Below, one piece after another: positions 5,529 through 39,442 of a DNA stretch of 64,000 nt. The first letter of the stretch is position 1. The number at the start of each line of letters is the position of its first letter. This DNA is from Saccharibacter sp. 17.LH.SD. GTDB taxonomy: Bacteria > Pseudomonadota > Alphaproteobacteria > Acetobacterales > Acetobacteraceae. The translations under genes were made by a program, and so were the position numbers. Location of the stretch: contig NZ_WVHO01000011.1 of assembly GCF_009834805.1 (NCBI RefSeq), positions 124,001-188,000 of the forward strand. The letters run 5' to 3'. The notes beneath the pieces were generated by a model. It was not told the DNA's origin. It made no database searches and was given only the letters and a program-made list of their open reading frames with translations.

Positions 5529-5544
5529 GGAAATAATGTAAGGC

Positions 5545-6228
5545 CTAAAGCTCTGCCCAACTGCGTTGCAAATTATGATACACGTTTGTAAGGCGGAGCA
5601 CCTCTTGATCTTCCGGACCGAAACGACTCATTAAATTCATGATCGTTTGATCAAGATCGAAGAGTATGTCGCGATGCTCTTGGGAACGCACCATAGACTG
5701 CGCCCAAAAGAAAGCCGCCCACCGGCTACCACGCGTCACTGGTGTTACACTATGAAGAGCCCGTGTAGGATAGACAATCATATCCCCCGCTGGCAGACGC
5801 ACGACCTTCTCTTCCGAAGGACCATAAAGAACGAGCTCGCCACCTTCATACTCGTCTAAATCGCTCATAAACAGCGTACTCGACACATCTGTGCGAATAC
5901 GCTGCCCTGTCCCTGGAATGGGACGTAATGCGTTATCAACATGAGCTCCAAAGGACATCCCTTTATCATATCGATTAAATAAGGGAGGGACGACGCGCAA
6001 AGGCTGCACCGCACTGTTAAACAAAGGATTTGTACCGAGCTTCCGTAAAATAAAAGTTGATAATTCACGCCCTAAAGGACTATCCGGAGGGATTTGAAGA
6101 TTATTTTTGACAGATGCTGACTGCCCCCCGGCCGTCTTTCGACCATCAACCCACTCCCCCTCCTGTAAACGAGACCGTAGGTACGTAAGCTCTTCTGGCG
6201 AAAGAACAGCAGGAATATGCAGCATCAT
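5545..6228 (-). CDS. piuC: PKHD-type Fe(II)/2-oxoglutarate hydroxylase, PiuC/YbiX family
   Basis: 227 residues. The double-stranded beta-helix dioxygenase carries the iron triad H96-x-D98 (GAHVDNA) and H159 (TRALHSVTPV) and the 2-oxoglutarate-binding R169 (GSRWAAFFW). PiuC/YbiX genes are iron-regulated partners of Fiu-type receptors. Here the gene starts 37 bp after the end of the Fiu-like receptor on the same strand, the same order as fiu-ybiX in E. coli. The exact substrate is not established; modification of catechol siderophore or its breakdown products is the usual guess. Start is ATG at 6228 or the adjacent ATG at 6225. Confidence 0.9.
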   Translation of the reverse strand: MMLHIPAVLSPEELTYLRSRLQEGEWVDGRKTAGGQSASVKNNLQIPPDSPLGRELSTFILRKLGTNPLFNSAVQPLRVVPPLFNRYDKGMSFGAHVDNALRPIPGTGQRIRTDVSSTLFMSDLDEYEGGELVLYGPSEEKVVRLPAGDMIVYPTRALHSVTPVTRGSRWAAFFWAQSMVRSQEHRDILFDLDQTIMNLMSRFGPEDQEVLRLTNVYHNLQRSWAEL

Positions 6229-6265
6229 AAAATTGTCCTTTTCCCTTTGTTCAACAAAGCACTCT

Positions 6266-8647
6266 TTAATAATCCATACTTAAGCGAGCCAAAAAGGTAC
6301 GCCCTGGAGCGGGGGTCGCATACCCTGAAAAGAGACTGCTATAATTAAGGCGGTTCGCCAAATTGTACCCATTAAGCGACGCACTCCAATGGCGATTGAA
6401 TCGATGAGAGAGCGTACTGTCAAACTCAACATTCGCTGGAGCACGAGCAGTATTGGCATTATCAAGCCACACACCCTGCCTCCATGTAATACCTCCGCCA
6501 ACTGTTATATTCCACGGCGTATTGGGAAATGCTTCATAAGCTGACCATAGCGTCGCCTGATTATGCGGCACATATTGAATCCTCTTGCCAACATTTCCTG
6601 GGGTTGAAGACGAAGTTACTTTTGGATCGTACAACGCATATGTAGCCGTTATATTCCAACCAGGAAGTATCATCCCGCCGAGCGATAACTCTAACCCCTG
6701 ATTCCTCTGCCTATCTCCTGTATTGAAGGTTGAATCAGCGACAGGGTCAGTCGTAAGGGCATTGCTTTTATCCAAACGGAACAATGAGATTGTTGCCCCT
6801 AAACGATCATGGAAAAAGCTCATCTTGCTCCCAATTTCATAGAGCTGAGCACGCTGGGGCTTATCCGAGGGCAATGTCCCCCCTTTGCCAGGGCGAACCG
6901 CTATCGCACCACTCGTCACATACATTCCTACAGGGGTCGTTGAACTTGCATAGGTGAAATAGAACATCTGCCACTTATTGGGCGTGATAATGAGGCTCGC
7001 TGTCGGATTAATAATATCTGACCGACTAGGAATACGTTGATCAGGGTTCGCAATCGTCTTCCCATTCGCAACAAAACTACTCGGCCCCCCCGTAACGCGA
7101 TAAGCACTCTGCCAACGGTCCCAACGGAAACCACCTTTAATGGAGATCCATTTCGCAAACCATATCTGGTCATACAGGAAAATACCCGTATCAAAACCAT
7201 ACCCCGTGCTGTTGGGTTTCTTCCCTAACCCCGCGATATACGGCATAAATTTAGGATCATTCCCTGCAGGAATACGGTACACCCCTCCAGCATTGCTCGA
7301 ATCAGGATTCAATAAATTCGCCTGGGGAACGGCCTTGTTATACACATATTGATGACGGGCATCATGGACATATTCCATGTCAAACCCCGTAACAAGCTGA
7401 TGTTTTAGAAAACCCGTATGAAAATCAGCCTGCATAGAAGCAACATTTTGGACAGACCAGCTCCATTGCTTATAGGGCATTGGCACACTGCTGCCAGGCG
7501 TTGTACGCTCAATCTCCCCGGCCGCAAAATCTCCACTGTTGAGGGCGTTAATACATCCCTGCTTACATTGAACTTTAGACGCCGTAAAATCACGACTAAA
7601 CTCACCAAAGCGCAGATCATTATGGAACGTTATATGTGAGTTATAATGATGCGTAAGACGCAATGTTTCCATTGTATCACTCGTCTTATTACGATCTTGA
7701 TCCTTTCCATACCAGTTATGACGCGGCACGCTATATTCTGTGATGGGACGCCCCACGGTAGAACCGCGCGCTTGCACCACCGGAACCCCAAAATCGGGCA
7801 CACTTTTATCAGATAAATGCATAATTTGGAAAACGACGGTGGTTTTCGTCCCCAAACCAAAGGCAATTGACGGGGCAATCCCCCAACGATGGTCAAAGAC
7901 TCCTTTACGGCCTATCACATTGTTAGAATTGCCTACGCCATCAATACGAAACGCACTATGCTCCCCAAATTGACGATTTATCCCTAAAGTTCCTCGATAG
8001 TAATTCCCTGACCCACCACTAAAATCACCACTGATCGAATTCTTTAACATCGGCATTTTTGTAACGGCATTAATCGCGCCACCAGTCGTCCCATTACCAA
8101 AGACCTGAGAAGATGGGCCTTTAATGACGTGAATGGAATCGTAATTAAAATTATCGCGCGTATAGACGCCAAAATCGTGCAGACCATCCTCATAAATATC
8201 GTTTTGAGCCGGGAAACCCCGAATAAGAAACTGATCCCCATTCAGGCCACCCGCTCCTTCACCAACAGAAGCCGCAATACCCGGAACATTCTTCAAGGCT
8301 TCATCCAACGATTTTGCATTTTGCTGCTTCATTAATTCACGTGGAACAACGTCAATCGTCTGTGCCGTATGCATCACATCCTGAGGCATTCGCCCCATAT
8401 CGTTGCTTGCATGCAAGACATTGAAAGGATGACCAATAACATGAAGCTTTTCAACATTTTTGCTCGTTACAGACAGTGATGAACCCTGCTGTGAAACAGG
8501 ATTCCCCTGTTTATCCGCATGGCTCTCTTCTGCAGTAGAAGCTCGACTGTGCATCGTCGCGGCAGGCTCGGCCTGTGCTCCTGCAGCGCTGCCGAACGTT
8601 AAGATCGCAGACACAGGCTTCAAACAATGTCGAACAAAACGGCTCAT
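6266..8647 (-). CDS. TonB-dependent catecholate siderophore receptor, Fiu-like (copy 1)
   Basis: 793 residues from ATG at 8647, which has GGAG 6 nt upstream; a TTG-initiated extension to 8668 is less likely. Signal peptide ends near AGAQA. The plug (about 75-210) shows QTIDVVPRELMKQQNAKSLD, DQFLIRGFPAQNDIYEDGL and HVIKGPSSQVFGNGTTGGAIN, the typical TIGR-style TonB-siderophore receptor plug, and the barrel ends LSMDY. Probably brings in ferric catecholates. Co-directional with piuC just downstream. Strongly similar along its length to the receptor at 10610-13009, so the pair arose by duplication; the two are separated by an oppositely oriented His-rich gene. Confidence 0.92.
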   Translation of the reverse strand: MSRFVRHCLKPVSAILTFGSAAGAQAEPAATMHSRASTAEESHADKQGNPVSQQGSSLSVTSKNVEKLHVIGHPFNVLHASNDMGRMPQDVMHTAQTIDVVPRELMKQQNAKSLDEALKNVPGIAASVGEGAGGLNGDQFLIRGFPAQNDIYEDGLHDFGVYTRDNFNYDSIHVIKGPSSQVFGNGTTGGAINAVTKMPMLKNSISGDFSGGSGNYYRGTLGINRQFGEHSAFRIDGVGNSNNVIGRKGVFDHRWGIAPSIAFGLGTKTTVVFQIMHLSDKSVPDFGVPVVQARGSTVGRPITEYSVPRHNWYGKDQDRNKTSDTMETLRLTHHYNSHITFHNDLRFGEFSRDFTASKVQCKQGCINALNSGDFAAGEIERTTPGSSVPMPYKQWSWSVQNVASMQADFHTGFLKHQLVTGFDMEYVHDARHQYVYNKAVPQANLLNPDSSNAGGVYRIPAGNDPKFMPYIAGLGKKPNSTGYGFDTGIFLYDQIWFAKWISIKGGFRWDRWQSAYRVTGGPSSFVANGKTIANPDQRIPSRSDIINPTASLIITPNKWQMFYFTYASSTTPVGMYVTSGAIAVRPGKGGTLPSDKPQRAQLYEIGSKMSFFHDRLGATISLFRLDKSNALTTDPVADSTFNTGDRQRNQGLELSLGGMILPGWNITATYALYDPKVTSSSTPGNVGKRIQYVPHNQATLWSAYEAFPNTPWNITVGGGITWRQGVWLDNANTARAPANVEFDSTLSHRFNRHWSASLNGYNLANRLNYSSLFSGYATPAPGRTFLARLSMDY

Positions 8648-18323: not shown

Positions 18324-18646
18324 GTCCGCGTAGCTCAGCAGGATAGAGCACAGGATTCCTAGTTTTAATTGGGCGCCAGGATTTGGAAACTGCCTGGTGG
18401 ATTCGCTCAAAGTCGGGGAACGCTCTGGTTCTACACGAACCGTGCCAATCCCGAGCCAAGCCTATTCGTGAGAGGTCGCTCTTGCGATAGGAAGGTGTAG
18501 AGACTGTACGGGCGACACCTTGAGAGACATCTCGTGGTGAAGAGACAGTCCAGACCACAAACACTCTCGATATCGCGAGAGTGGCGGCGAAAGCCGACGT
18601 GGGATGAATCCTGGGGCCGAGGGTTCGAATCCCCCCGCGGACACCA
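18324..18646 (+). tRNA. tRNA-Arg(CCU), interrupted by a group I intron
   Basis: Exons 18324-18360 and 18607-18646 join into a 77-nt tRNA with encoded CCA. Acceptor GTCCGCG pairs with CGCGGAC; D stem GCTC/GAGC; anticodon stem CAGGA/TCCTG around loop TTCCTAA gives anticodon CCU; T loop TTCGAAT. The T stem has one A-C mismatch (GAGGG/CCCCC). It reads AGG codons. The tRNA cannot fold until the 246-nt insertion after U36 is removed. Confidence 0.93.
18361..18606 (+). ncRNA. Group I intron (IC3, Azoarcus-like) in tRNA-Arg(CCU)
   Basis: 246 nt inserted directly after the anticodon, ending in G (omega-G, 18606). The exon end CCU (18358-18360) can pair with an internal guide GGG at 18371-18373, with the U-G wobble at the splice site. 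P2 is CGCCAGG (18374-18380)/CCTGGTG (18393-18399). Core motifs GAGCCAAGC (18453-18461), AAGGTGTAGAGACTG and GACAGTCCAGA are nearly those of the Azoarcus tRNA-Ile intron; P7 forms from GACTGT (18502-18507) and ACAGTC (18545-18550). No homing endonuclease is encoded. Self-splicing is expected from the family, not shown here. Confidence 0.9.
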
Positions 18647-18754
18647 CACCCTCCACCGTATTGACAGATTACATCATGCATTGTTCCCGAAGAGGTTTCC
18701 CGTTTTCATAATAAAATTTAATTTATTTCCTACGAGCAACAGGTTGTGTTAATT

Positions 18755-18792
18755 TTAGTTTTGTATTCGAAACAAATCGAATACAAAACTAA
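18755..18792 (+). promoter_or_regulatory. 15-bp perfect inverted repeat before the exported-peptide gene
   Basis: Arms TTAGTTTTGTATTCG (18755-18769) and CGAATACAAAACTAA (18778-18792) with an 8-nt centre, ending 11 nt before the peptide's ATG at 18804. No T tract follows, so an operator or a 5'-UTR hairpin controlling translation is more likely than a terminator. Confidence 0.6.
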
Positions 18793-18803
18793 CGGTGGTA
18801 ACG

Positions 18804-19076
18804 ATGTTGAAAAAAACACAGAAACTTTTTGGTTTATTAGCAGCGCTTCCTATTGCAACTGTGGGAAGCAGTGCCGCTTTAATTAGCAGTGCTCACGCAA
18901 ACACTACCAGCGCCGTTAACGTAGCTGAAGGCCACCTTTCGGTCGATCATTTGGGACGTCCTCATCTAAATGGTCAACTTATGAAGTTCATTGTAAAGGA
19001 TTCAGCTACTGATGATTCAGACGACCCATTCGAAGTTCTAGATGTCAATGGTATATGCTCAACCAAACAATTCTAG
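18804..19076 (+). CDS. Small exported peptide, candidate RiPP precursor
   Basis: 90 residues from ATG at 18804 (in-frame GTG at 18795 is the alternative). N-terminal MLKKTQKLFGLLAALPIATV and following AALISSAHA form a clear Sec-type signal peptide with an AxA site at about residue 33. The remaining 57 residues are polar, with DHLGRPHLNGQ, an acidic stretch (ATDDSDDPFEVLD) and a single Cys near the end (NGICSTKQF). No family recognised. It is followed 191 bp later by a radical SAM enzyme, with a strong hairpin between them, which is the layout of a modified-peptide locus. Base composition is AT-rich like the rSAM gene and unlike the housekeeping neighbours. Confidence 0.6.
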   Translation: MLKKTQKLFGLLAALPIATVGSSAALISSAHANTTSAVNVAEGHLSVDHLGRPHLNGQLMKFIVKDSATDDSDDPFEVLDVNGICSTKQF

Positions 19077-19123
19077 TATATAATATTTATTCTTCTGCTC
19101 ATTCAGGTAATATTTTCAAGTAA

Positions 19124-19163
19124 ATACTAGATGTTGATAGCACATACTATCAACATCTAGTGT
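19124..19163 (+). repeat. 17-bp hairpin between peptide and radical SAM genes
   Basis: Perfect 14-bp arms CTAGATGTTGATAG (19127-19140)/CTATCAACATCTAG (19147-19160), extendable by A-U, G-U and A-U pairs, with a 6-nt loop. No T tract follows. It may stabilise the upstream peptide mRNA or reduce read-through into the enzyme gene. A second, weaker 7-bp repeat (ACTTGAT 19180-19186 / ATCAAGT 19201-19207) follows. Confidence 0.65.
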
Positions 19164-19267
19164 AAACCTAACTTCAGTCACTTGATTAGGAAATAATCTC
19201 ATCAAGTCACCTCCAGGGAGCGGCACTGGATCTCCCCCTCAATCTACTGGCACAAAGGACATGTGCA

Positions 19268-20245
19268 ATGCATAATAGACTCTCCTTGGCGCTTGATCCG
19301 ACTTATCTCAAACTAATCCTATTTCCGACAGAGAAATGTAACTTCCGCTGCCTTTATTGCTATGAAGATTTTGAAAAAGGAAGAATGGAAAGAAAGATTA
19401 TTGAAGGAATTAAGAATCTTATAACACTCAGAGCCCCAGAACTAACAAAACTAAACATTGATTGGTTCGGCGGGGAACCCCTTCTGGCGAAGGATATCGT
19501 AATAGAAATTCTTTCTCACGCAAAAGATTTAAGAGAAGAGTATGGTTTCTCTCTGCTTTCATCTATTACAACCAATGGATATACCCTCGATCCGACCACA
19601 ATATTAAACATCGGCAAAATCTGTCCCACCGAGTATCAAATTTCATTCGATGGCTACCGAGATTACCATAACTCAAAACGATTCATTAACCACAAAGATG
19701 GAAGTTTTGACAGTATATGGAAAAACATATGCTCATTTAATGAATTAAGAAAATCTGGGAAGCTCAAAAGTGGAAGGATAACCCTTAGACTCCACGTCCA
19801 TACAGATAATCAGTCTTCTCTACTAGAACTTATTAACCAAATTAATCTAAATCTAGATCCGCAATTTTTTCATGTTTTCCTTAAAAATATCGCTCATCTA
19901 GGAAGTAAAAATGATGATAAATTCTCCATTTTAGACGATACATCCTCCATACATCGTCATAAAGAATTAAATGAACAACTTTCCAAATTCCGTCTTGTTT
20001 CACTTAATAAGAGTTCTCCGTATATTTGCTACGCATCAATGCCAAACAGCTTCGCAATCCGTCCTGATGGCAGTTTAGCAAAATGTACAGTCGCCCTTAA
20101 GAGTCCCAAAAATCATCTAGGCTACCTAACGCCAGAAGGAACCTTTGATTTCAATAAAGAGACATTTACCCCATGGATTAAATCTTTCCAAACCTTGGAT
20201 CCAGCAGTTCTAGCATGCCCCTTACATTACATTGAGAAAAATTAA
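19268..20245 (+). CDS. Radical SAM enzyme with short SPASM/twitch end, candidate peptide maturase
   Basis: 325 residues. The [4Fe-4S]-SAM motif CNFRCLYC has C24, C28 and C31, followed by the GGEP motif (WFGGEP, 66-71) and a TIM-barrel region (ITTNGY, ISFDGY). The C-terminus has C254-x13-G268-x4-C273, the SPASM/twitch signature, but ends at ACPLHYIEKN with C317 as the only further Cys; the usual later C-x2-C-x5-C-x3-C ligands are absent. Such enzymes install thioether or carbon-carbon links in ribosomal peptides; here the likely substrate is the exported peptide upstream. RBS GGAC precedes the ATG. AT-rich, suggesting horizontal acquisition next to a tRNA gene. Confidence 0.85.
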   Translation: MHNRLSLALDPTYLKLILFPTEKCNFRCLYCYEDFEKGRMERKIIEGIKNLITLRAPELTKLNIDWFGGEPLLAKDIVIEILSHAKDLREEYGFSLLSSITTNGYTLDPTTILNIGKICPTEYQISFDGYRDYHNSKRFINHKDGSFDSIWKNICSFNELRKSGKLKSGRITLRLHVHTDNQSSLLELINQINLNLDPQFFHVFLKNIAHLGSKNDDKFSILDDTSSIHRHKELNEQLSKFRLVSLNKSSPYICYASMPNSFAIRPDGSLAKCTVALKSPKNHLGYLTPEGTFDFNKETFTPWIKSFQTLDPAVLACPLHYIEKN

Positions 20246-20295
20246 CTACAATCTAAAATCCTTCTTCCTATAATTTTCTTTAGCGTTTCTCTAAC

Positions 20296-20337
20296 AATAT
20301 ATAGACGGATCCACTATAGTAGGTCTGTCTATATATT
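20296..20337 (+). terminator. Long hairpin after the radical SAM gene
   Basis: AATATATAGAC (20296-20306) pairs perfectly with GTCTATATATT (20327-20337); the inner arms (GGATCC/AGGTCT, then ACTATAGT) extend the stem to about 20 bp with one mismatch and two G-U pairs. Followed by ACAATTTTATT. Probably ends the peptide/rSAM transcript, though the T stretch is weak. Confidence 0.5.
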
Positions 20338-20429
20338 ACAATTTTATTATGTATTAATGTATTTTCATTACGAGAAAAAGACAATACTATTTTCCCTTAC
20401 TCTCTCATAATTCTTGGCAATGCTATTAT

Positions 20430-22982: not shown

Positions 22983-24182
22983 TTACAGACGAATGGAAAA
23001 TTCTGTTGTCCACTCCTTAAACTCTGTTTTGTTCTCCAACGTTAAGGCTCCGCCATGACCGAGAACGATTTGTCGCGCAAGACTGAGCCCTATCCCATTA
23101 CCATTCTTCTTGAAAGACATAAAAGGCTCAAAGATATGGTCACGTTGCGTTGGATCAACACCACTTCCGTTATCCCGTACGAAAATACTGGCCACGCCAT
23201 TATCCCACACACCAACGAGCTGCACACGCGGCGACACCATCTCAAGAGTAGCCTCGGCACTATTGTTGAGTAAGTTCAGTAAGGCCTGTTCCATTTGAAC
23301 TCTGTCTAAATGAACCAGAATGTGCGTTGGTGGAAGAATGAGCTCAAGAACAGGACATTCAGCCCAGCGCGCCTCGAATAACGTCGCCGTCGTGCACAAC
23401 AACTCTCTAAAATCAACGGGTTTTAAATTTGGTGCCGGCAGACGTGCGAGATCACGATAACCACGGACGAAATGTTCTAAACCATCAGCACGACGTCGAA
23501 TCGTTGACAATAATTCACTCATTGATTGACCTTTGTCAGGTAATTCAGTGAGCAAATCTTCTGCCATTGCAGAAAGAGATATGATCGGCGTCAGTGAATT
23601 CATAATCTCATGACTAAGAATTTGAAGTAGGTCGCGAAGCGCTTTCGCTTCGGCAGTGTTCATCCTAGCTTCAATATCCAGTAACGCCAGATAAACGCGT
23701 ATTCCCCCCATACCACCACCCTGCGCGATTGATACGGCATAGGTACGAAGGGAGCCGCCCAACGATGGTAATTGAATGACACTATGATTTAGGGCATTAC
23801 TCCCTGATTCAAGGACGGCTATAAGCGCAGCGGGTGGTGCCAATATTTTCCCTTGTACCTTGAACACAGTACGAGCGGCACGGTTTGCAGCGTAAATTGT
23901 ACCATCTGTGCGCTGAAAAAGAAGCAGCACTGGAGCATGGTCGATCAGAGCACGATTCAACAATTTTTCGCTATCTTCTGGCGGAACAACGGACACCTCT
24001 TTACGTTGGATACGGCGCTGTAATTCGAGCTGTTTAATAATCAGTAAAACGGCGCAAAGAATACCAACACACACCATGACCACTGTTGTGACGAAACAAC
24101 GTCGTTCCCAAGCAAAGGCCGCCAACAAACAAGCAGAAACAATCCCGCCTATTTGTATTAATGTGCCAATAATGACGCGCAT
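22983..24182 (-). CDS. Sensor histidine kinase (NtrY-like, HEIMNSLTPI type)
   Basis: 399 residues. Two N-terminal membrane helices (about 3-25 and 31-50) with almost no periplasmic loop, a PAS-like domain (about 75-170), a dimerisation helix with phospho-acceptor H191 in SHEIMNSLTPI, and a catalytic domain with LLNLLNNSAEA (N box), VRDNGSGVD (G1) and GNGIGLSLAR (G2). Phosphorylates the regulator encoded immediately upstream (24183-25379). The tiny periplasmic loop suggests sensing inside the membrane or cytoplasm. The pair is divergent from an ABC/FtsX/TolC exporter operon, so it probably controls export. Confidence 0.92.
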   Translation of the reverse strand: MRVIIGTLIQIGGIVSACLLAAFAWERRCFVTTVVMVCVGILCAVLLIIKQLELQRRIQRKEVSVVPPEDSEKLLNRALIDHAPVLLLFQRTDGTIYAANRAARTVFKVQGKILAPPAALIAVLESGSNALNHSVIQLPSLGGSLRTYAVSIAQGGGMGGIRVYLALLDIEARMNTAEAKALRDLLQILSHEIMNSLTPIISLSAMAEDLLTELPDKGQSMSELLSTIRRRADGLEHFVRGYRDLARLPAPNLKPVDFRELLCTTATLFEARWAECPVLELILPPTHILVHLDRVQMEQALLNLLNNSAEATLEMVSPRVQLVGVWDNGVASIFVRDNGSGVDPTQRDHIFEPFMSFKKNGNGIGLSLARQIVLGHGGALTLENKTEFKEWTTEFSIRL

Positions 24183-25379
24183 TTATAACCCATACCTTGC
24201 CATCCGACGATAAAGTGCCGGACGTGTCAGCCCGAGTTCTTGAGAAGCCTTTGTTACATTGAATTTATGTTTACGGAGTGTCGACTCAATAAGCATTCGT
24301 TCCGTATCTTGCAATGTCGCTGAGGCCGTTATGTTTTCCTGTGGCGTAACAGAAGGCGTAGACCAATTTCCGGTTAAAACAGCACGTTCAACCGTTGCAC
24401 GAAGAGAACGGACATTTTGTGGCCATGGGCTTGCCTTCAACGTTTCGAGATGTGTCTCATCTGGGTCAGGACTTGGTAGGCCATGACGCACAGAAAAATA
24501 ATCTAGAAAATATGGAGTGAGAGCCGCAATATCATCAGGCCTTTGAGACAAAGGCGGCACCGCCAGAGTGATCATGCCAAGATGCAGCATAAGCCGAGGA
24601 TTGAGACGAACATCCAATGTATCTTTACTGACGGAGGACAGAGCGATAACACGCGGAGACTCACAGTCATCAAGTTTATCGGCAAGTTGATGTTGGACAA
24701 GAGGTGATAGCTCCTCTACATCCCGAATAAGCCAATTGCCGTGATCACGTGGTAAGATGTTACATTCTTTTGCATGGATCGGGATTTCGGCTGTTCTGTC
24801 GCGAGATAAGGCAAAAATACGCCGCGCAAGAGTGGTCTTTCCACTTCCTGACGGTCCACATATGGTAATCGGCGCCTGCGTCAAGGCAAGACGATCTGCC
24901 TCTGCGACAATCTGTTTTAACTCTGAGGACGCAACAATCATCGCATTTTTTGTCGTCGTCTCACCATTGATAGGACGAGCCAAAAGCGTTTGTTTTATGA
25001 GAGTAACAAAACGTTTATTGTTCCATGGTTTCATCACAAAATTACATGCACCCGCACGCATAGCCTCGACCGCAATCGTAACACCACTATGCCCAGTAAC
25101 AACGACAACGGGTAAATTTGGCTTCAAAACCAATATGTCTTTCAAGAGTGCTAGACCTTCAGCGCCATCCCGCGCACCCCTAGCATAATTGAGATCAAGC
25201 AAGACAAGATCCACAGCATGAGTTGTAAGCTTCGCCAGGGCAGACTGTGCATCATGAGCACATATGACCTCTATATCATGCTGTTTAAACAGCATGCCTG
25301 CTGCTGACTGAATATCAGTATCGTCATCAACAAACAGCAAAAGAGGTTTTCCATCACACGGTGCCATTGTGCTTCTCAT
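24183..25379 (-). CDS. NtrC-like response regulator with degenerate AAA domain
   Basis: 398 residues (start ATG 25379, or ATG 25367 with AGAAG upstream). Receiver domain 11-125 with acidic pocket D18-D20, phosphorylation site D62, T95 and K117. The central AAA domain has Walker A GPSGSGKTT but lacks the ELFGHxxGAFTGA loop that contacts sigma-54, and Walker B is altered (LIRDVEEL). A Fis-type helix-turn-helix ends the protein (TKASQELGLTRPALYRRMARYG). It should bind DNA but not activate sigma-54 promoters in the usual way. Likely partner of the adjacent kinase and regulator of the divergent exporter. Confidence 0.88.
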   Translation of the reverse strand: MRSTMAPCDGKPLLLFVDDDTDIQSAAGMLFKQHDIEVICAHDAQSALAKLTTHAVDLVLLDLNYARGARDGAEGLALLKDILVLKPNLPVVVVTGHSGVTIAVEAMRAGACNFVMKPWNNKRFVTLIKQTLLARPINGETTTKNAMIVASSELKQIVAEADRLALTQAPITICGPSGSGKTTLARRIFALSRDRTAEIPIHAKECNILPRDHGNWLIRDVEELSPLVQHQLADKLDDCESPRVIALSSVSKDTLDVRLNPRLMLHLGMITLAVPPLSQRPDDIAALTPYFLDYFSVRHGLPSPDPDETHLETLKASPWPQNVRSLRATVERAVLTGNWSTPSVTPQENITASATLQDTERMLIESTLRKHKFNVTKASQELGLTRPALYRRMARYGL

Positions 25380-25427
25380 CGATTCGTTGCGCTATGCGTC
25401 ACTTTTCCTCTTGAAGTCATATTTTAG

Positions 25428-25445
25428 GTGTCCGTTTTTGGACAC
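25428..25445. promoter_or_regulatory. GTGTCC-N6-GGACAC dyad between regulator and exporter operons
   Basis: Perfect 6-bp arms GTGTCC (25428-25433) and GGACAC (25440-25445) around TTTTT-rich centre, with another GTCCAG 3 nt on. It lies centrally in the 181-bp divergent gap and is a good candidate binding site for the Fis-type regulator. Confidence 0.55.
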
Positions 25446-25560
25446 TATGTCCAGTTTCGAACAATCTCACCTATGACCAACACAAAAAACCATTATTTAT
25501 CAATAAGATAATTCCTAATGTGATCAATGTTACACTGTTTCTGAAGAGGAGAAACCGTAC

Positions 25561-26883
25561 ATGGATCAAATATTACAAAACAACTCTCCCTTTGGTGATA
25601 CACAGCTTCCGCCTACCAGCAGTGGAATGGATCGTATCGTAAAGCCATCACGTCGTAAAACGCTTATACGACGGTCGCTACGTTACGGTACCCCTGTCGC
25701 CATAGTGCTCACACTTATAGTAGGATGGCGGCTTATCCCCGTTTCTGGAACACTTTCTGTATCGAGCGATCAGCTCTCTTTTGAAACGGTTAGAACAGCA
25801 CCATTCCTAGATTATTTACCAGTTCGCGCAACGGTCACTCCACTCCATGTTACCTTTATTGACGCAGTACAAGGAGGATCAGTTGCCGAAATTATCGCTA
25901 GAGATGGCGCCCTCGTACAAAAAGGAGATATGCTTGCTTATCTGACAAACCCACAACTTCAGTTGGATGTCATTTCTCGCGAAGCACAAATTGCAAGCCA
26001 GCTTGGGGTTAATAGTGGGCAACGTCTAACCTTGCAGCAAACGCGCACGACAGAGGAGACACAATTAGCCGAAGCGCGTTATAGCCTCCTTAAGACGCAA
26101 CGCGAACTGTACATTCGTGAGCAACTCCGTAGCCAAGGCTTCGAATCGGACGCTAATGTTCAGTCTTACCGCGATGAAGCTGAATATTATGCGCAACGTC
26201 TCAAACGCTTAGAGAATGCCTTAACGCAAGATCTTAAAATTGCTGACAAACAGAGCAAAGAAATAGACGAAGAGGCTCAGCGATTACGCTCTAATTTAGA
26301 CGCCGTCAAAGCAAGCTTAAATGCCCTGATTCTTCGTGCACCATTAACAGGTCGTCTCACGAATTTCGATCTTCAGCCGGGACAATCTCTCAAAGCTGGC
26401 GACAGAATCGGGCAAATTGATAGCGAGAAGCAATATAGGCTCGATGCGGACATTGATGAATTTTATCTTGGTCGCATCTTTGTGAAGGAACACGCTGAAG
26501 CGGATCTGGGCAACGTCAAGATTCCCATGACTGTTTCGCGCGTTCATCCACAAGTGACAAAAGGTCAGTTCCGCGCTGAACTCACCTTCGACGCAGTACC
26601 GCCTGACACATTACACCGTGGCGAAAGTATCGATCTGCGTATCACATTGGGTGAAACCCGCCAGGCACTCGTGTTGCCAAACGGAGCCTGGTTGGAAGAT
26701 AGCGGTGGCCTCTCTGCTTTTGTCGTCTCTGCAAATGGTCATAGCGCACATCGCATCGCCATTACGTCAGGTCGACGCAACCCTGACCAGGTGGAAATCA
26801 CCAGCGGGCTCCACGAGGGAGACCGCGTCATCACTTCCTCCTACAAAACCTACAAAAATTTCAACCATCTCAGCATTCATTGA
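25561..26883 (+). CDS. Periplasmic adaptor (HlyD/MacA family) of an ABC exporter
   Basis: 440 residues, start supported by GAGGAG 9 nt upstream. A membrane anchor (about 43-62) is followed by the first half-lipoyl motif (GGSVAEIIARDGALVQKGDML), a long coiled coil (about 150-250: EREL, QRLKRLENALTQ, QSKEIDEEAQRLRSNLD), the second lipoyl half (APLTGRLTNFDLQPGQSLKAGDRIG) and a beta-barrel domain with VLPNGAWLE. It should bridge the inner-membrane FtsX permease and the TolC-like channel. First gene of a four-gene operon. Confidence 0.9.
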   Translation: MDQILQNNSPFGDTQLPPTSSGMDRIVKPSRRKTLIRRSLRYGTPVAIVLTLIVGWRLIPVSGTLSVSSDQLSFETVRTAPFLDYLPVRATVTPLHVTFIDAVQGGSVAEIIARDGALVQKGDMLAYLTNPQLQLDVISREAQIASQLGVNSGQRLTLQQTRTTEETQLAEARYSLLKTQRELYIREQLRSQGFESDANVQSYRDEAEYYAQRLKRLENALTQDLKIADKQSKEIDEEAQRLRSNLDAVKASLNALILRAPLTGRLTNFDLQPGQSLKAGDRIGQIDSEKQYRLDADIDEFYLGRIFVKEHAEADLGNVKIPMTVSRVHPQVTKGQFRAELTFDAVPPDTLHRGESIDLRITLGETRQALVLPNGAWLEDSGGLSAFVVSANGHSAHRIAITSGRRNPDQVEITSGLHEGDRVITSSYKTYKNFNHLSIH

Positions 26884-26899
26884 ACGAAAGGTCTCATCC

Positions 26900-27583
26900 A
26901 TGTTGATCAAGCTTATGAACATACAGCGTCTTTATCGTTCTGACGAAATAGAAACCACAGCGTTACAAAACATCAATCTGCACATTGAGGAAAAAGAATT
27001 CGTCGCCATCATGGGACCATCTGGGTGCGGAAAATCAACACTGCTTAACATTCTCGGCACAATCGACCGTCCGACAACAGGATCTTACCATTTCGGCCAG
27101 CATGAACTCACGGAAATGAATGAGGCAACACTCGCAAAATTTCGACGCGAGCATCTCGGTTACATCTTTCAGAGCTTCAACCTCATTGATGAACTGACCA
27201 TTAAAGAAAATATCGAACTTGCTTTAACATATCGCAACATCCCCAAAAACGAACGCCGTAAGCGCGTCGATCATGCCATGGACCGTGTTGGGATCGGGCA
27301 TCGAGCTCATCATTATCCATCACAACTTTCAGGAGGACAGCAGCAACGTGCCGCCATTGCCCGCGCCATCGTTGGGAAACCGCGCTTGATCCTCGCCGAC
27401 GAACCAACCGGTAATCTTGATACCGAAAACGGTGCACAAGTGATGGATATTCTTCAAAGTCTTAATGATGAAGGGGCCACCATCATCATGGTTACGCACT
27501 CCTTGAGCCACGCTGACCTTGCTCGCCGCCGCATTGATATGCTCGACGGACAAATTGTTGTTTCCGTAGCCAACGCAATTTGA
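26900..27583 (+). CDS. ABC transporter ATPase, MacB/LolD family
   Basis: 227 residues from ATG at 26900, with AAAGG upstream; the longer open frame upstream overlaps the adaptor gene and has no family support. Walker [11 protein letters not shown]-loop FQSFNL, signature LSGGQQQR, Walker [13 protein letters not shown] and H-loop MVTHS are complete. Energises the FtsX-type permease encoded next; such pairs work by mechanotransmission rather than by moving substrate through the membrane domain. Cytoplasmic. Gap to the adaptor gene is 16 bp, so cotranscribed. Confidence 0.95.
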
Positions 27584-27601
27584 AAGAGAATGGAGCATAT
27601 T

Positions 27602-30070
27602 ATGTTGACCACAATCTTTCGCAGTGTTGTGAGACAAGGACGGCGTCACCCCCTTTATATTGGAATTAATGTTTTTGGATTAGCACTTGGCATCGGTGTG
27701 TTTTTGACGCTCGCTATGCTTGTTCGGTTCGAATACGGCTATAATTCTGGATTAAAGGATGTTGATCGACTTGTCAGAGTGGATACAAAATCAACACCCC
27801 CAGGAAATACTCCCACAGAAAGTGAATCCACCTCATTCTACGCTGTTCCGTTCCTGAAAGAGGATTTTCCTGAGATTGAAGAAAGTGTTCGCTTTCAAGA
27901 ACAGGACCTTCAAATCCAGCGCAACGGCGAGTTTGCCAGCTTGCACGGAGGGTATGTTGATCCTTCATTTATGACGACATTTCAACCAGCCTTAATGCAA
28001 GGTACACAAGCTGCTCTGATGCGGCCAGATGGATTAGTTCTCTCACAATCTGCAGCCAATCGTCTTTTTGGAACAACGAACATATTAGGACGGTCTGTTA
28101 CCCTTAACAACGACGGAGAGATAAGTCAGCACGTTGTCACCGGAGTCTTACGTGCATCCTCTATCCCTAGTTTTCTCTCCGATATAGGGATATTGGCCCC
28201 AATACGAGCTGAAGATGAGAAAACATCACCTTGCTATACGCGTTGGGCAAGCATGTGTGGGTCAGTCTATCTGAAATTACGCCAACCAAGTGACATTGCA
28301 GCCGTTCAAGCAAGACTGCGTGACTTTATTATAAGACGCGCCTCTGGATCAGATGATAATTATAAGAGCCTTGGTCCACATCCTGAGAAAACCTACAGCT
28401 TCAAACTCGTTCCAATGCGGGATGCCCGTTTTTATGACGCTCACATAACGGAACCATCAAGAGGCTTGGATCAAAATGTTCTTAATGGGATCGGAGCGAT
28501 TGGTTTACTCGCTTTATTCTTAGCATGTGCCAACGTCATCAATTTTGGGACGGCACGTTCTGTTCTTCGTGCACGCGAAGTCGCTATTCGTAAAACGCTC
28601 GGTGCTACACGTAAGATGCTTTTCCTACACTTTATGGGAGAGTCGCTGGTGATAACGGCATGTTCAGCTATTCTGGGCTTCGCTTTATCCGAGATTCTTG
28701 TTCAAGAAATCGCCAGTTTAACAGGTGAAAATATACGAATAGCCTATGACTTCGTGTTGGAAATACTGCCTCTCACTATTCTTATCTGTGGCTGTGCAAG
28801 CGGAATATATCCGTCCCTTATTCTTTCAGGATATCAGCCCGCACATATACTGGCCTCGGCACGCATGCCATCAGGGGGTCGAAAAGCTGCAAAATTAAGA
28901 AATGGGTTGGTTATTTTCCAATTCTCCGTTTCTGCTGTCATTATCATCATCATATTAGTTATTCATCAACAGACATTATTTCTGCAACGTGCCAATCAAG
29001 GATACGTCACGTCTGGGCTTTTAATTGGTGATATGATCCCGAGCCATGATATCGCTATACAGCGCCGTATCAAAGAAACACTTCGTACAGTGCCAGGAGT
29101 CCAGGCATCCACATTCGGATCCCTCGCTCCTAAGCCTGAAGAGAGAAATATGTGGGAGTTCGATTACATCTCTCCTCATGGTACGGCTCAAGTAAATACA
29201 CTTCAAGACACTGTAGATAATGATTATGTCAGCGTCTATCAACCACAATTAATTGCCGGTCGTTGGTTTGATCTTTCACGAGGACAAGATCAAATGCCTA
29301 ATTGGAACAAAAACCCTAATACCATTAGTAACGTTGTTATTAACGCAACAGCCGTATCACGATTTGGCTTTATCAAATTTTCAGATGCTATCGGTAAAAT
29401 TATTGAATCAAATCCAAATCATTTTAAGGCAAGAATTATCGGCGTGCTTGATGACATGCGTTTTGAATCACCACGAGAACCTGTGAGACCCAGAATTCTT
29501 TTCTTTAATTCTTTAACGGTCCATCCTTATTTTAAGCCAATACCAGCAGTTCGTTTCTCAGGCGTTCCAGTTATGCAGATGGAACAACGTTTGCAACAGG
29601 TTTGGGGGCGCAATTTCCCTAATATCTATATAGAGTTTCAAACGCCCACTGCTCGGATGGAATATTATGTCCATGGGGATGAACAGCGTGAACATATCTT
29701 TACACTTGGAGCATGCACGGCGGTAATCATTGCAGTACTCGGGCTTTATGGCCTCGCCTCCTTCGCGGCCGCACGTCGTGTTTACGAAATTGGAATCCGT
29801 AAAACTCTTGGTGCAACAGCCAAACAAATAATGTTGCTGTTACTGACCGAGTTTCTTCGTCCCGTCATCATCGCATGTATTATCGCTTGTCCAATTGCAT
29901 GGGTTCTGATGCGCGAATGGCTGTCTGGATTTAATGAACGCATCACGCTCGGCCCTACCCCATTTATCATCGCACTATTTAGTGCGCTCTTGATCGCAAC
30001 ACTCACTGTCCTCGGTCAGACCCTTCGCCTCGCATACTCTGAGCCAGCACGTGCTCTTAAAACGGAGTAA
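27602..30070 (+). CDS. FtsX-like ABC permease (MacB_PCD, duplicated FtsX domains)
   Basis: 822 residues from ATG at 27602, which has GGAG 6 nt upstream. Layout: helix about 20-42, periplasmic MacB-core domain, FtsX helices about 285-420 (LNGIGAIGLLALFLACANVINF), a further helix (VIFQFSVSAVIIIIILVI, about 435-455), second periplasmic domain, and a second FtsX unit (about 705-820). The coupling motif AREVAIRKTLGATRKMLF and its repeat YEIGIRKTLGATAKQIML mark the two halves. Eight predicted helices match the double-size permeases found with TolC-linked exporters; substrate (peptide, antibiotic, lipid) unknown. Confidence 0.92.
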   Translation: MLTTIFRSVVRQGRRHPLYIGINVFGLALGIGVFLTLAMLVRFEYGYNSGLKDVDRLVRVDTKSTPPGNTPTESESTSFYAVPFLKEDFPEIEESVRFQEQDLQIQRNGEFASLHGGYVDPSFMTTFQPALMQGTQAALMRPDGLVLSQSAANRLFGTTNILGRSVTLNNDGEISQHVVTGVLRASSIPSFLSDIGILAPIRAEDEKTSPCYTRWASMCGSVYLKLRQPSDIAAVQARLRDFIIRRASGSDDNYKSLGPHPEKTYSFKLVPMRDARFYDAHITEPSRGLDQNVLNGIGAIGLLALFLACANVINFGTARSVLRAREVAIRKTLGATRKMLFLHFMGESLVITACSAILGFALSEILVQEIASLTGENIRIAYDFVLEILPLTILICGCASGIYPSLILSGYQPAHILASARMPSGGRKAAKLRNGLVIFQFSVSAVIIIIILVIHQQTLFLQRANQGYVTSGLLIGDMIPSHDIAIQRRIKETLRTVPGVQASTFGSLAPKPEERNMWEFDYISPHGTAQVNTLQDTVDNDYVSVYQPQLIAGRWFDLSRGQDQMPNWNKNPNTISNVVINATAVSRFGFIKFSDAIGKIIESNPNHFKARIIGVLDDMRFESPREPVRPRILFFNSLTVHPYFKPIPAVRFSGVPVMQMEQRLQQVWGRNFPNIYIEFQTPTARMEYYVHGDEQREHIFTLGACTAVIIAVLGLYGLASFAAARRVYEIGIRKTLGATAKQIMLLLLTEFLRPVIIACIIACPIAWVLMREWLSGFNERITLGPTPFIIALFSALLIATLTVLGQTLRLAYSEPARALKTE

Positions 30071-30075
30071 AAAAC

Positions 30076-31473
30076 ATGCGTCCGATAACCGTATTACTCA
30101 CAATATCCATCCTTTTGCTCCAATCTGCACAAGCTCAGACCCTCTCTGAAGCTCTTAGGTTAGCCTATCGCACCAATCCAACATTACTAGGAGAGCAAGC
30201 CAACCAACGTGCCGTAACAGAAAACTCAGCAAAATCACGCTCTAGTTGGCGCCCGACTGTTACTATTAATATGGATGCCAATTATCAAAAGGCATCGGAT
30301 ACATCTGACTTTGCGCAAGGATCACAGGCATCAAACTATGCAGAAGGGTATATTTTAGCCCAACAAACACTTTATTCCTTTGGGCATACAGCCAATCAAG
30401 TACGAGCCGCAGATGCACGTTCTCGTGCAGAAGGTGAGGCGTTGCGTCTAACAGAATCTCAGGTCTTTATTAACGTCATTACAGCCTACATGAATGTATT
30501 ACGAGACAGAAACGTCCTTGAGGTGCGTCGTGCTGATTTAGAAATGTTGATACAACAGGTGAAATTGATTACCTCACGTTACAACATTGGTGGACAACCA
30601 AGCGAGCAAGTGACCCGTACAGACGTTGAACAAGCCCAGACACGCCGCCATTCGGCAGAAGTGGCGTTAACTCAAGCTAAGGCAACACTCGCCGCATCAG
30701 AAGCATTATTTCGAGCTGTGATTGGCGTAGAACCCAAAAAACTGGCTATGCCGAATCAATTTCTCAGTCTTCCAAAGGATATTGAGCAAGCGATTAGAGC
30801 CGCGATAACAAATAATCCACAGCTTGCCCAAATGCGTGAAACCAAAGAAGCAACAGCAGCTGATATTGATACAGCACGGTCCCAATGGGGGCCGCAAATT
30901 CAAATGCAGGGTCGTTTTGGTACAATGGGCCCTGCAGCCCCATTCTCTGGCCGAGAATATAGAGAACAGCTTGCGGGCACTGTGTCACTCGTGCAACCGC
31001 TCTATAATGGTGATCTTTACAATTCTCAAATTAGACAGGCACGAGCCAAAGATGAACAAGCTCGACAGAATGTTGAATTGATACAGCGGAAAACACGCCA
31101 GAGTGTCGTGACAAACTGGCGTGCTGTTGAGAATGGTTTAGAAGCGATCAGAGTCGGCATGGCCGAAGTGCAATCAGGTGAAAAAACCTTAAAAGGGTAT
31201 CAGCTTGAATATGGATATGGGCTACGCAGCACAACCGACGTTCTTTATGCTGATCAAAACTTAAGGTCAGCACAAGTTGAACTCGCAGAAAGTCAACATG
31301 ATACAGTCGTCGCCAAAGCCAATCTTTTAGCCGTCATGGGAGAATTACAAGCAAAATCTTTACTACCTAATGAGCGTTATTATGACGCTAACACACGATT
31401 TCAACTTGCCCGCACACGCGGGTGGGAACCATTGCAGACACCAATTGCAGCTCTTGATCGTGCGGGATGGTAG
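30076..31473 (+). CDS. TolC-family outer-membrane efflux channel
   Basis: 465 residues, beginning 6 bp after the permease. Signal peptide MRPITVLLTISILLLQSAQA, then QTLSEALRLAYRTNPTL, the TolC N-terminal signature. Two repeated OEP halves with coiled-coil helices and the mid-protein PFSGREYREQLAGTVSLVQP LYNGD segment; the second half repeats FxxGLRSTTDVLYADQNL, typical of TolC itself rather than NodT lipoproteins. Completes the tripartite exporter. No terminator of quality is visible in the 93 bp before the convergent nadK. Confidence 0.94.
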   Translation: MRPITVLLTISILLLQSAQAQTLSEALRLAYRTNPTLLGEQANQRAVTENSAKSRSSWRPTVTINMDANYQKASDTSDFAQGSQASNYAEGYILAQQTLYSFGHTANQVRAADARSRAEGEALRLTESQVFINVITAYMNVLRDRNVLEVRRADLEMLIQQVKLITSRYNIGGQPSEQVTRTDVEQAQTRRHSAEVALTQAKATLAASEALFRAVIGVEPKKLAMPNQFLSLPKDIEQAIRAAITNNPQLAQMRETKEATAADIDTARSQWGPQIQMQGRFGTMGPAAPFSGREYREQLAGTVSLVQPLYNGDLYNSQIRQARAKDEQARQNVELIQRKTRQSVVTNWRAVENGLEAIRVGMAEVQSGEKTLKGYQLEYGYGLRSTTDVLYADQNLRSAQVELAESQHDTVVAKANLLAVMGELQAKSLLPNERYYDANTRFQLARTRGWEPLQTPIAALDRAGW

Positions 31474-39337: not shown

Positions 39338-39378
39338 GTAAAAACACAATGGGCTCTGTGGTTTTAACCACAGAGCCC
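39338..39378 (-). terminator. Terminator after eda
   Basis: 13-bp perfect arms GGGCTCTGTGGTT (39351-39363) / AACCACAGAGCCC (39366-39378); on the minus strand it is followed by a T-rich stretch (39350-39338, with TTTTT). Separates the edd-eda operon from the MFS gene. Confidence 0.85.
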
Positions 39379-39442
39379 ACCTCGCACAGACAAAAGAGCT
39401 TTTTACAACCCCTCCGTCTTATCCTGAGAACTTCCGCGGGTA

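Follow-up and report, generated by a model that had tools for sequence, protein, structure and literature searches.

The closest described chemistry is that of NxxcB from Streptococcus orisratti, a radical S-adenosylmethionine (SAM) maturase of the ranthipeptide group which, as described in PMC8326336 and PMC13361665, joins Cys23 of the peptide NxxcA to Asn20 via the beta carbon; the streptococcal subfamilies treated in these sources are tied to Rgg regulators, unlike the system presented here. Thioether chemistry is also that of the PapB family, and PapB joins Cys to Asp or Glu according to PMC9413430. Concerning secretion, Sec signal peptides are characterized in PMC12452194 as highly unusual for precursors of ribosomally synthesized and post-translationally modified peptides (RiPPs), and that account gives the use of Sec in the natural host as experimentally shown for bufferins only. 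The precursors of bufferins and oxazolins have Sec signal peptides, as is predicted for the present system, but they are modified by MNIO enzymes, another superfamily working with partner proteins, and the function of bufferins is copper-linked (PMC12452194). Here we analyze a gene pair of Saccharibacter sp. 17.LH.SD, made of a predicted precursor peptide gene (18804-19076, + strand) and a gene for a probable radical SAM peptide maturase (19268-20245, + strand), both located in a 64,000-nucleotide stretch of contig NZ_WVHO01000011.1 (hereafter the window, to which coordinates refer unless another record is named).

The peptide gene, the enzyme gene and their pairing

The pair is most likely a RiPP locus, which agrees with the original prediction. 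A short precursor gene encoding a leader and a core stands beside a gene for a predicted modifying enzyme, and this arrangement is conserved: a small peptide open reading frame (ORF) was found near the enzyme at all 19 close-family loci that were opened and assessable, several of these ORFs being unannotated. The enzyme also resembles maturase-type models and the core carries an Asn-Cys motif.

The precursor has 90 residues. By eye, its N-terminus is rich in Lys, continues in a hydrophobic stretch and ends in an A-H-A motif followed by N, so that a Sec signal peptide of residues 1-32 is predicted (18804-18899, +), with cleavage after Ala-His-Ala (residues 30-32). It is followed by the leader motif GHLSVDHLGRP (18930-18962, +), a probable enzyme-recognition element, and by the C-terminal core with the predicted cross-link site Asn82-Gly-Ile-Cys85 (19047-19058, +). 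Relatives that could be aligned came from within the genus, from an Acetobacter tropicalis plasmid and from genome G978. Both the size and the predicted signal peptide agree with what had been noted from the sequence, as does the lack of a Grr-type core, which is Gly-rich and repeated, no Gly-rich stretch being present in the peptide. A literature search for GrrM/GrrA gave no support for the comparison with Grr-type systems.

The 325-residue enzyme contains the Pfam domain Radical_SAM (PF04055; 1.2e-12, 48.7 bits, cut-off 29.5) with the CxxxCxxC motif in the form CNFRCLYC, confirming a radical SAM enzyme after the peptide gene. Its assignment to the SPASM type held in part. SPASM domains are recognized by the motif CX9-15GX4C, and by CX2CX5CX3C for the second auxiliary cluster. 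The first was present as C254-X13-G268-X4-C273, invariant in both of our alignments (A1 and A2); the second was not, as the window enzyme has one further Cys, C317, and its SPASM domain is thus shortened, with three C-terminal Cys left. The nine enzymes of alignment A2 have FGGEP, CYA, KCTV and a final CP in common, and their only invariant C-terminal Cys are Cys254, Cys273 and Cys317. Four more distant SPASM outgroups retain a C-terminal CxxC which is missing in the window-type enzymes. From these residues the domain is predicted to be a twitch-like shortened SPASM, twitch being the term given in PMC9012708 to a truncated SPASM domain that binds one auxiliary cluster.

Among the best 25 of 64 NCBIfam matches of the enzyme, the top models were all peptide maturases and no Grr model appeared. 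TIGR04463 (rSAM_vs_C_rich) reached 122.9 bits, TIGR04334 (Clo7bot) 101.5 and PapB (NF047865) 99.7, far under their cut-offs of 525, 600 and 340; six relatives behaved in the same way. TIGR04463 and TIGR04334 are by score the closest curated SPASM maturase models for most members, seven enzymes scoring 54-146 bits, but these models are 438 and 440 positions long, against 307-361 residues in the window-type enzymes. The 330-position PapB model matches residues 16-225 (1.8e-28) and leaves the C-terminal part unmatched. The AlphaFold2 model (pLDDT 84.5, the predicted local distance difference test) was closest to 5why, titled a thioether-bond-forming sactipeptide enzyme (Z 22.2, root-mean-square deviation 3.6 over 290 residues), followed by anSME (Z 21.9, tied with 5why) and ChlB (Z 21.2). 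The protein of 5why/5wgg, which we take to be CteB, is the nearest solved one in both fold and sequence; it is longer (453 residues), and its substrate differs from the window peptide. Because the best-matching of these 25 models were peptide maturases, though none near its cut-off, the enzyme does not present itself as a known non-peptide radical SAM enzyme.

The enzyme family is rare. It was detected in 4 of 299 sampled genomes of the window's family, the same four being those found in 200 genomes of the order, in 1 of 385 of the class (the window's own), in 2 of 398 of the phylum and in 1 of 199 from the family to which G978 belongs; these samples overlap and their E-value limits differ. 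Among 72,556 plasmid records, 11 matched a relative at 1e-30, and a plasmid search with P0001 gave nothing useful. Related enzymes occur in Nostoc and Pseudoalteromonas, on plasmids of Streptomyces, Sinorhizobium, Bradyrhizobium and Acetobacter, and on IMG/VR contigs. A scan of phage records yielded 14 matches, all of them more distant and none above 29.9% identity, and three further viral scans added no loci beyond the known contigs. The literature searched contained no paper describing this family, and a search on Acetobacter RiPPs returned only an unrelated result.

The 19 loci are those of the window, of two sister species (G101 and G158), A. tropicalis, G978, G054, two Streptomyces, S. 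meliloti, B. barranii, B. elkanii (with the same peptide as B. barranii), Bradyrhizobium 2S1, Pseudoalteromonas and Nostoc, together with L028, L029, L030, L031 (identical to L032) and L034. Truncation or disruption affects the peptide or the enzyme in G101, G158, 2S1 and L034. L033, which ends at a contig edge inside the enzyme, was left out of this assessment, and two Bradyrhizobium records and more distant relatives such as L013, L015-L018, L035 onward and the lower plasmid rows stand outside the counts. The motif tests do not include the distant Deinococcus loci L023 and L118, where neither the annotation around both nor the small ORFs after the L023 enzyme revealed a credible precursor. 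The pairing of enzyme and peptide genes is well supported, and an enzyme lacking its peptide gene, which would have spoken for another reading, was not encountered at any of the 19 assessable close-family loci. The 90-residue peptide itself matched no Pfam or NCBIfam family, as would suit an exported small protein placed beside an unrelated radical SAM enzyme. However, the pairing and the motifs recur across phyla, and we consider such a coincidence of unrelated genes highly improbable.

Some of these loci present features of their own. L030 (IMGVR_UViG_3300045974_000166) has at 3968-7478 an enzyme of the family together with a Cys-rich precursor of the Asn-x-Cys type and, by eye, a C39-like exporter; it is a 192-kb virus-like contig with neighboring ORFs resembling ribonucleotide reductase and GIY-YIG endonuclease, possibly a case of a RiPP cluster on a large phage. 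By eye, the enzyme and precursor of L028 (3941-5138) and the enzyme of L033 (from 4001) adjoin portal- and terminase-like ORFs, as if carried as prophage cargo. In L031, two precursors (5066-5347 and 5667-5900), one of them with five Asn-x2-Cys units, come after one enzyme and are followed by two MacB-type permeases. The G054 cluster (L011, 1040-2743) has beside the enzyme a 567-residue protein with Fic and 2-oxoglutarate-Fe(II) oxygenase domains, perhaps a second tailoring enzyme.

Asn-Cys cores and the predicted cross-link

Motifs were counted in 18 precursors, all intact, with one copy per identical group and the Nostoc NHLP peptide added. Fourteen of them have a strict leader pattern (shuffled mean 1.2) and 16 have a loose one (shuffled mean 5.1), numbers reached by 0 of 3000 shuffles each. 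These counts describe rather than test the leader, because the patterns come from the same data and the loose match of L031b falls in its core. The core gave a firmer result: 17 precursors provided 50 Cys, with Asn at position -3 of 22 (shuffled mean 5.1) and at position -4 of 15 (shuffled mean 4.6), again with 0 of 2000 shuffles in each case; Asp, Gly, Ser, Thr and Pro were not enriched at these two positions. Asn stood at -3 or -4 of a Cys within the last 45 residues of 16/18 precursors and within the last 25 of 14/18 (0 of 5000 shuffles). Without the Cys-rich L029-L031 the figures were 11/13 and 10/13 (0 of 5000 each), and the three intact Sec-type precursors alone gave 3/3 (2 and 9 of 5000 shuffles). 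Three peptides came to light only after the motif had been spotted, and in two of them, from G978 and from Bradyrhizobium 2S1, Asn stands at -4 of a Cys.

The window core contains the Asn-x2-Cys element of NxxC peptides, Asn82-Gly-Ile-Cys85. As its spacing is identical to that of Asn20 and Cys23 in NxxcA, one beta-thioether is predicted, and on this motif an Asn82-Cys85 thioether is likely. The attacked carbon, which a sequence does not reveal, would most likely be the beta carbon. The likeness to NxxcA/NxxcB lies in the Asn-x2-Cys core, the radical SAM maturase and the predicted bond between the Asn beta carbon and the Cys sulphur, whereas the predicted Sec signal peptide and a MacB/TolC-type exporter set the window system apart. 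The original prediction had considered a new precursor and maturase class. The bond type is probably not new, because the predicted cross-link is already known for NxxcA/NxxcB; the apparent novelty lies in bringing together a predicted Sec signal peptide, a leader kept past signal-peptidase cleavage, a shortened SPASM domain and an exporter set of the two-component/MacB type, which the original prediction had not connected with the pair.

A RiPP locus with another modification has also to be considered, be it an alpha-carbon sactionine, a bond of Cys with some other residue, epimerization or a carbon-carbon bond, Asn then merely shaping a turn. The NCBIfam neighbors of the enzyme are annotated with several bond types, its fold neighbors include enzymes that do not form thioethers (anSME, SuiB), and which carbon is attacked is beyond what a sequence reveals. 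Nevertheless, the enrichment at -3 and -4 of Cys was specific to Asn among the residues tried, and Asn and Cys are the pair used by NxxcB. We therefore regard another modification as a real contender, but a rather unlikely one.

Proposed export route, state of the locus and genomic setting

A putative signal peptide ending in AxA was seen by eye in the precursors of the window, G101, A. tropicalis and G978 (clear in the three intact ones and in G101). The AxA end is followed by S in A. tropicalis (AHA), G978 (AIA) and G101 (ALA), and after it these Sec-type precursors have [GS]H-[IL]-[ST]-[VL]-D-x-x-G or a near variant. The four corresponding enzymes form one clade with 100/98 support (four rows, midpoint root), and the Sec-type label needs one change on the tree, against a shuffled mean of 3.8 (0 of 500 shuffles). 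In other family members the leaders are double-glycine-like and exporters of the C39 type lie close by, in G054 according to Pfam and in Pseudoalteromonas and L030 as judged by eye. Since the recognition motif lies past the signal-peptidase site, the leader should stay on after Sec export, and a second protease would be needed. In G158 an S41 protease gene is located between peptide and enzyme.

The pair lies within 18755-20337, the interval first proposed for the system, but related genes reach beyond it. At 22983-31473 the window contains genes for a sensor histidine kinase (22983-24182, -; 43.7% identity to that of the A. tropicalis plasmid), a response regulator with AAA+ and Fis-type helix-turn-helix domains (24183-25379, -; 51.4%), an HlyD/MacA-like periplasmic adaptor (25561-26883, +; 68.9%), an ABC transporter ATPase (26900-27583, +; 79.7%, the start being estimated from the A. 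tropicalis length and the longest ORF beginning at 26618), an 826-residue MacB/FtsX-type permease (27590-30070, +; 52.1%) and a 465-residue TolC-type outer-membrane channel (30076-31473, +; 69.5%). Plasmid pAtBDGP1A of A. tropicalis BDGP1, a strain from Drosophila, has the same eight gene types (CIW82_RS18845-RS18880), there contiguous and plasmid-borne, in the order kinase, regulator, HlyD, ATPase, permease, TolC, Sec-type precursor and enzyme. Its core, TNGNCKGVC, has two Cys against one in the window, and its precursor and enzyme are annotated merely as hypothetical protein and radical SAM protein. Both records also share a TGTCC-N6-GGACA palindrome ahead of HlyD, an operator-like GTGTCC-N6-GGACAC in the window (25428-25445) and CTGTCC-N6-GGACAG in A. 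tropicalis.

As to regulation, the window precursor and exporter upstream regions have no 9-mer in common. A shared operator for the two was not retained: the sole 9-mer common to the precursor upstream regions of the window and A. tropicalis, ATTGACAGA, is roughly at the level expected by chance and contains a -35-like TTGACA. Concerning sigma-54 control, the regulator partially matches Sigma54 interaction domains above the Pfam cut-offs, and no GAFTGA was seen by eye.

Three core genes, coding for an AEC transporter, a low-molecular-weight phosphatase and a hydroxyacid dehydrogenase, lie between the peptide and exporter segments. This separation could mean that 22983-31473 is a separate general efflux module and that the pair stands alone, with Sec as its only exit. 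The two segments also differ in G+C content (36.8% for the peptide segment, 46.0% for the exporter segment), and similar permeases are carried by plasmids of Sphingomonas, Novosphingobium, Spirosoma and Hymenobacter. However, in A. tropicalis the six genes are directly adjoined by those of a Sec-type precursor and enzyme, relatives of the permease (26%) and of the ATPase (48%) lie near the pair of G978, both sister species lack the exporter at the corresponding position, and G101 has no pair at the site that corresponds to that of the window's pair. Hence a separate efflux module appears unlikely to us. Relatives of the kinase (31%), HlyD (21%) and ATPase (46%) were also found in Pseudoalteromonas, and eight other family-locus stretches gave no match to the exporter set or just ATPase-type matches. 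Two MacB domains were counted in the window's genome, one of them within the window, and 13 of 14 control genomes have such domains too.

The sister species bear on both segments. Dehydrogenase and NAD kinase ORFs flank the exporter set in the window; in G101 and G158 these two ORFs are about 20 bases apart, and none of the six exporter and regulator proteins was matched in 17 kb there, nor in the 17.6-19-kb stretches either side of the broken pairs. At the position of the window's pair, between the tRNA described below and the AEC gene, G101 has a 1195-residue ORF. From the contiguity in A. tropicalis, the missing exporter and the pair site in G101, the two window segments appear to be parts of a single cassette that three core genes interrupt.

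In both sister species the pair lies elsewhere in the genome and is broken, with loss of the peptide end and of CxxxCxxC in G101, and with a stop in the peptide and a disrupted enzyme motif and frame in G158. The window copy could then be a decaying relic too, non-functional in both enzyme and peptide, as could fit the fact that the G158-type S41 protease has one weak partial match of about 84 residues in the window genome. But in the window both reading frames are complete, and none of the invariant family residues is missing from the enzyme. Also, the window and G101 enzymes are identical at 162 of 284 residues, and their codons differ by 0.38, 0.22 and 0.68 at first, second and third positions, an excess at third positions consistent with past protein-level selection on the enzyme. 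A relic is in our opinion improbable.

The locus is AT-rich, as first noticed, with 36.8% G+C in 18650-20420 against 47.9% in the whole window. The three inverted repeats described earlier are present, but instead of flanking the pair they are placed before the peptide gene, between the genes and after the enzyme gene. The first (18755-18792, a perfect 16-bp stem with a 6-nt loop) lies just ahead of the precursor ribosome-binding region, the second (19126-19161, perfect, 15 bp, 6-nt loop) in the precursor/enzyme gap, and the third (20296-20337) is imperfect (21 nt, 86%) and a possible transcript end. Perfect hairpins of at least 14 bp with a loop of at most 10 number three in the 64-kb window, two of them in this locus, and not one of 200 dinucleotide-shuffled versions of the locus had such a hairpin; the window's third, of 14 bp, is at 39350-39379 (TGGGCTCTGTGGTTTTAACCACAGAGCCCA). 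No perfect stem of at least 9 bp was found near the pairs of A. tropicalis, G978 and G101, and G158 has a 10-bp perfect stem 3' of the enzyme and another within its protease gene. The three repeats thus seem local to the window locus, and those bracketing the precursor may stabilize its mRNA. Rfam matches to microRNA and small RNA at the repeats (E 0.13-0.28) were taken as chance. We also do not claim a mobile unit from the 12-bp terminal inverted repeats bracketing the pair (18707-18718 and 20340-20351), because by a rough estimate such repeats are near chance in AT-rich DNA of this length.

Upstream of the peptide gene, the expected intron-bearing tRNA was recovered by ARAGORN with introns allowed, as tRNA-Arg(CCT) at 18324-18646; a default tRNA scan and an Rfam gathering scan missed it. 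The 246 interrupting bases reach 48.8 bits against the Rfam model for group I introns, whose gathering cut-off is 50, and group I introns in tRNA-Arg(CCU) are known from other bacteria. The DNA across this tRNA is 79-80% identical in G101 and G158. The tRNA is a neighbor and no part of the peptide system. We do not claim it as an integration site: no integrase was noticed among the ORFs listed around it, none having been specifically sought. A long adhesin-like ORF comes after this tRNA in G101, which makes the site variable. Such long, repeat-rich adhesin-like ORFs were observed between the tRNA and the AEC gene in G101 (L095, 2315-5902) and beside the AEC gene in G032 (L097, 200-2923).

Proposed explanation and its meaning

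We propose a RiPP cluster whose two parts are separated by three core genes, with an Asn82-Cys85 bond and export by Sec and then by a MacA/MacB/TolC-type pump, an explanation that we consider fairly probable as a whole. The cytoplasmic enzyme would bind GHLSVDHLGRP and make a radical from SAM, and the Cys85 sulphur would be bonded to Asn82 at one of its side-chain carbons, most probably beta, with a loss of 2 Da and the formation of one ring, while a single auxiliary cluster on Cys254, Cys273 and Cys317 would hold or oxidize the substrate. The peptide would exit via Sec, signal peptidase cutting after residue 32, and a periplasmic protease would take off the remaining leader. The pump (25561-31473) would then expel the product or protect the producer, and the adjacent kinase/regulator pair would sense the product and control the pump. 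Probably the enzyme ties one ring into the peptide and the pump-and-sensor set completes its export; judged from the genes, a relay from Sec to MacB is plausible. A pump with its own sensor suggests that the product is probably an envelope-acting antimicrobial or signal.

Several observations weigh against this explanation. The chemistry is predicted from motifs. Computation established the gene pair and how it is conserved, the motifs, the single clade, and an exporter operon common to the window and A. tropicalis that is absent at the sister-species site, whereas the bond and its carbon, the number of clusters, the order of export, the protease, the cargo of the pump and the function of the product are inferred. 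The leader patterns were drawn from the data that they describe and helped to choose some of the precursors, and the Asn-Cys motif had been spotted before it was tested on most of the sequences. Gly at -2 of Cys was also mildly enriched, which had not been predicted (37 of 2000 shuffles reached the count). The window core has a single Cys, a third later-seen peptide (a 53-residue ORF beside a distant Deinococcus enzyme) has none, G054 has Asp-x2-Cys twice instead of the Asn motif, and the Pseudoalteromonas candidate has neither. Regarding export, the S41 protease was found only in G158 among the three genomes of the genus, and a partner protein delaying Sec until modification was not noticed, none having been specifically sought. 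Exporters of this type also exist where the enzyme is absent: 14 plasmid records have a permease relative, and of these A. tropicalis alone recurs in the two sets of 19 and 11 records that match the enzyme. Finally, the tRNA-AEC interval of G158 is on contig ends, its only enzyme matches lying elsewhere, so its empty site is not demonstrated.

More tentatively, and as an idea that may well fail, we suggest that a clade of thioether synthases with one auxiliary cluster switched from double-glycine leaders and C39 export to a two-membrane relay, combining Sec export with the leader on, periplasmic trimming and a dedicated MacA/MacB/TolC-type pump with a two-component sensor. The cassette would be plasmid-mobile in Acetobacteraceae and would decay where only peptide and enzyme are kept.

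If the proposed explanation is true, this locus, with its simple cross-link site and a named plasmid relative, would provide, for a radical SAM enzyme, a second example of how modified peptides can be routed through Sec. It would also link a modified peptide to MacB-type pumps, whose natural cargo is, to our knowledge, often unknown. The novelty would be a Sec-secreted, MacB-linked type of radical SAM thioether RiPP with a shortened SPASM domain. Also, an Asn-x2/3-Cys rule would recast genes now called "radical SAM protein" as predicted thioether maturases in Proteobacteria, Cyanobacteria, Streptomyces and virus-like contigs.

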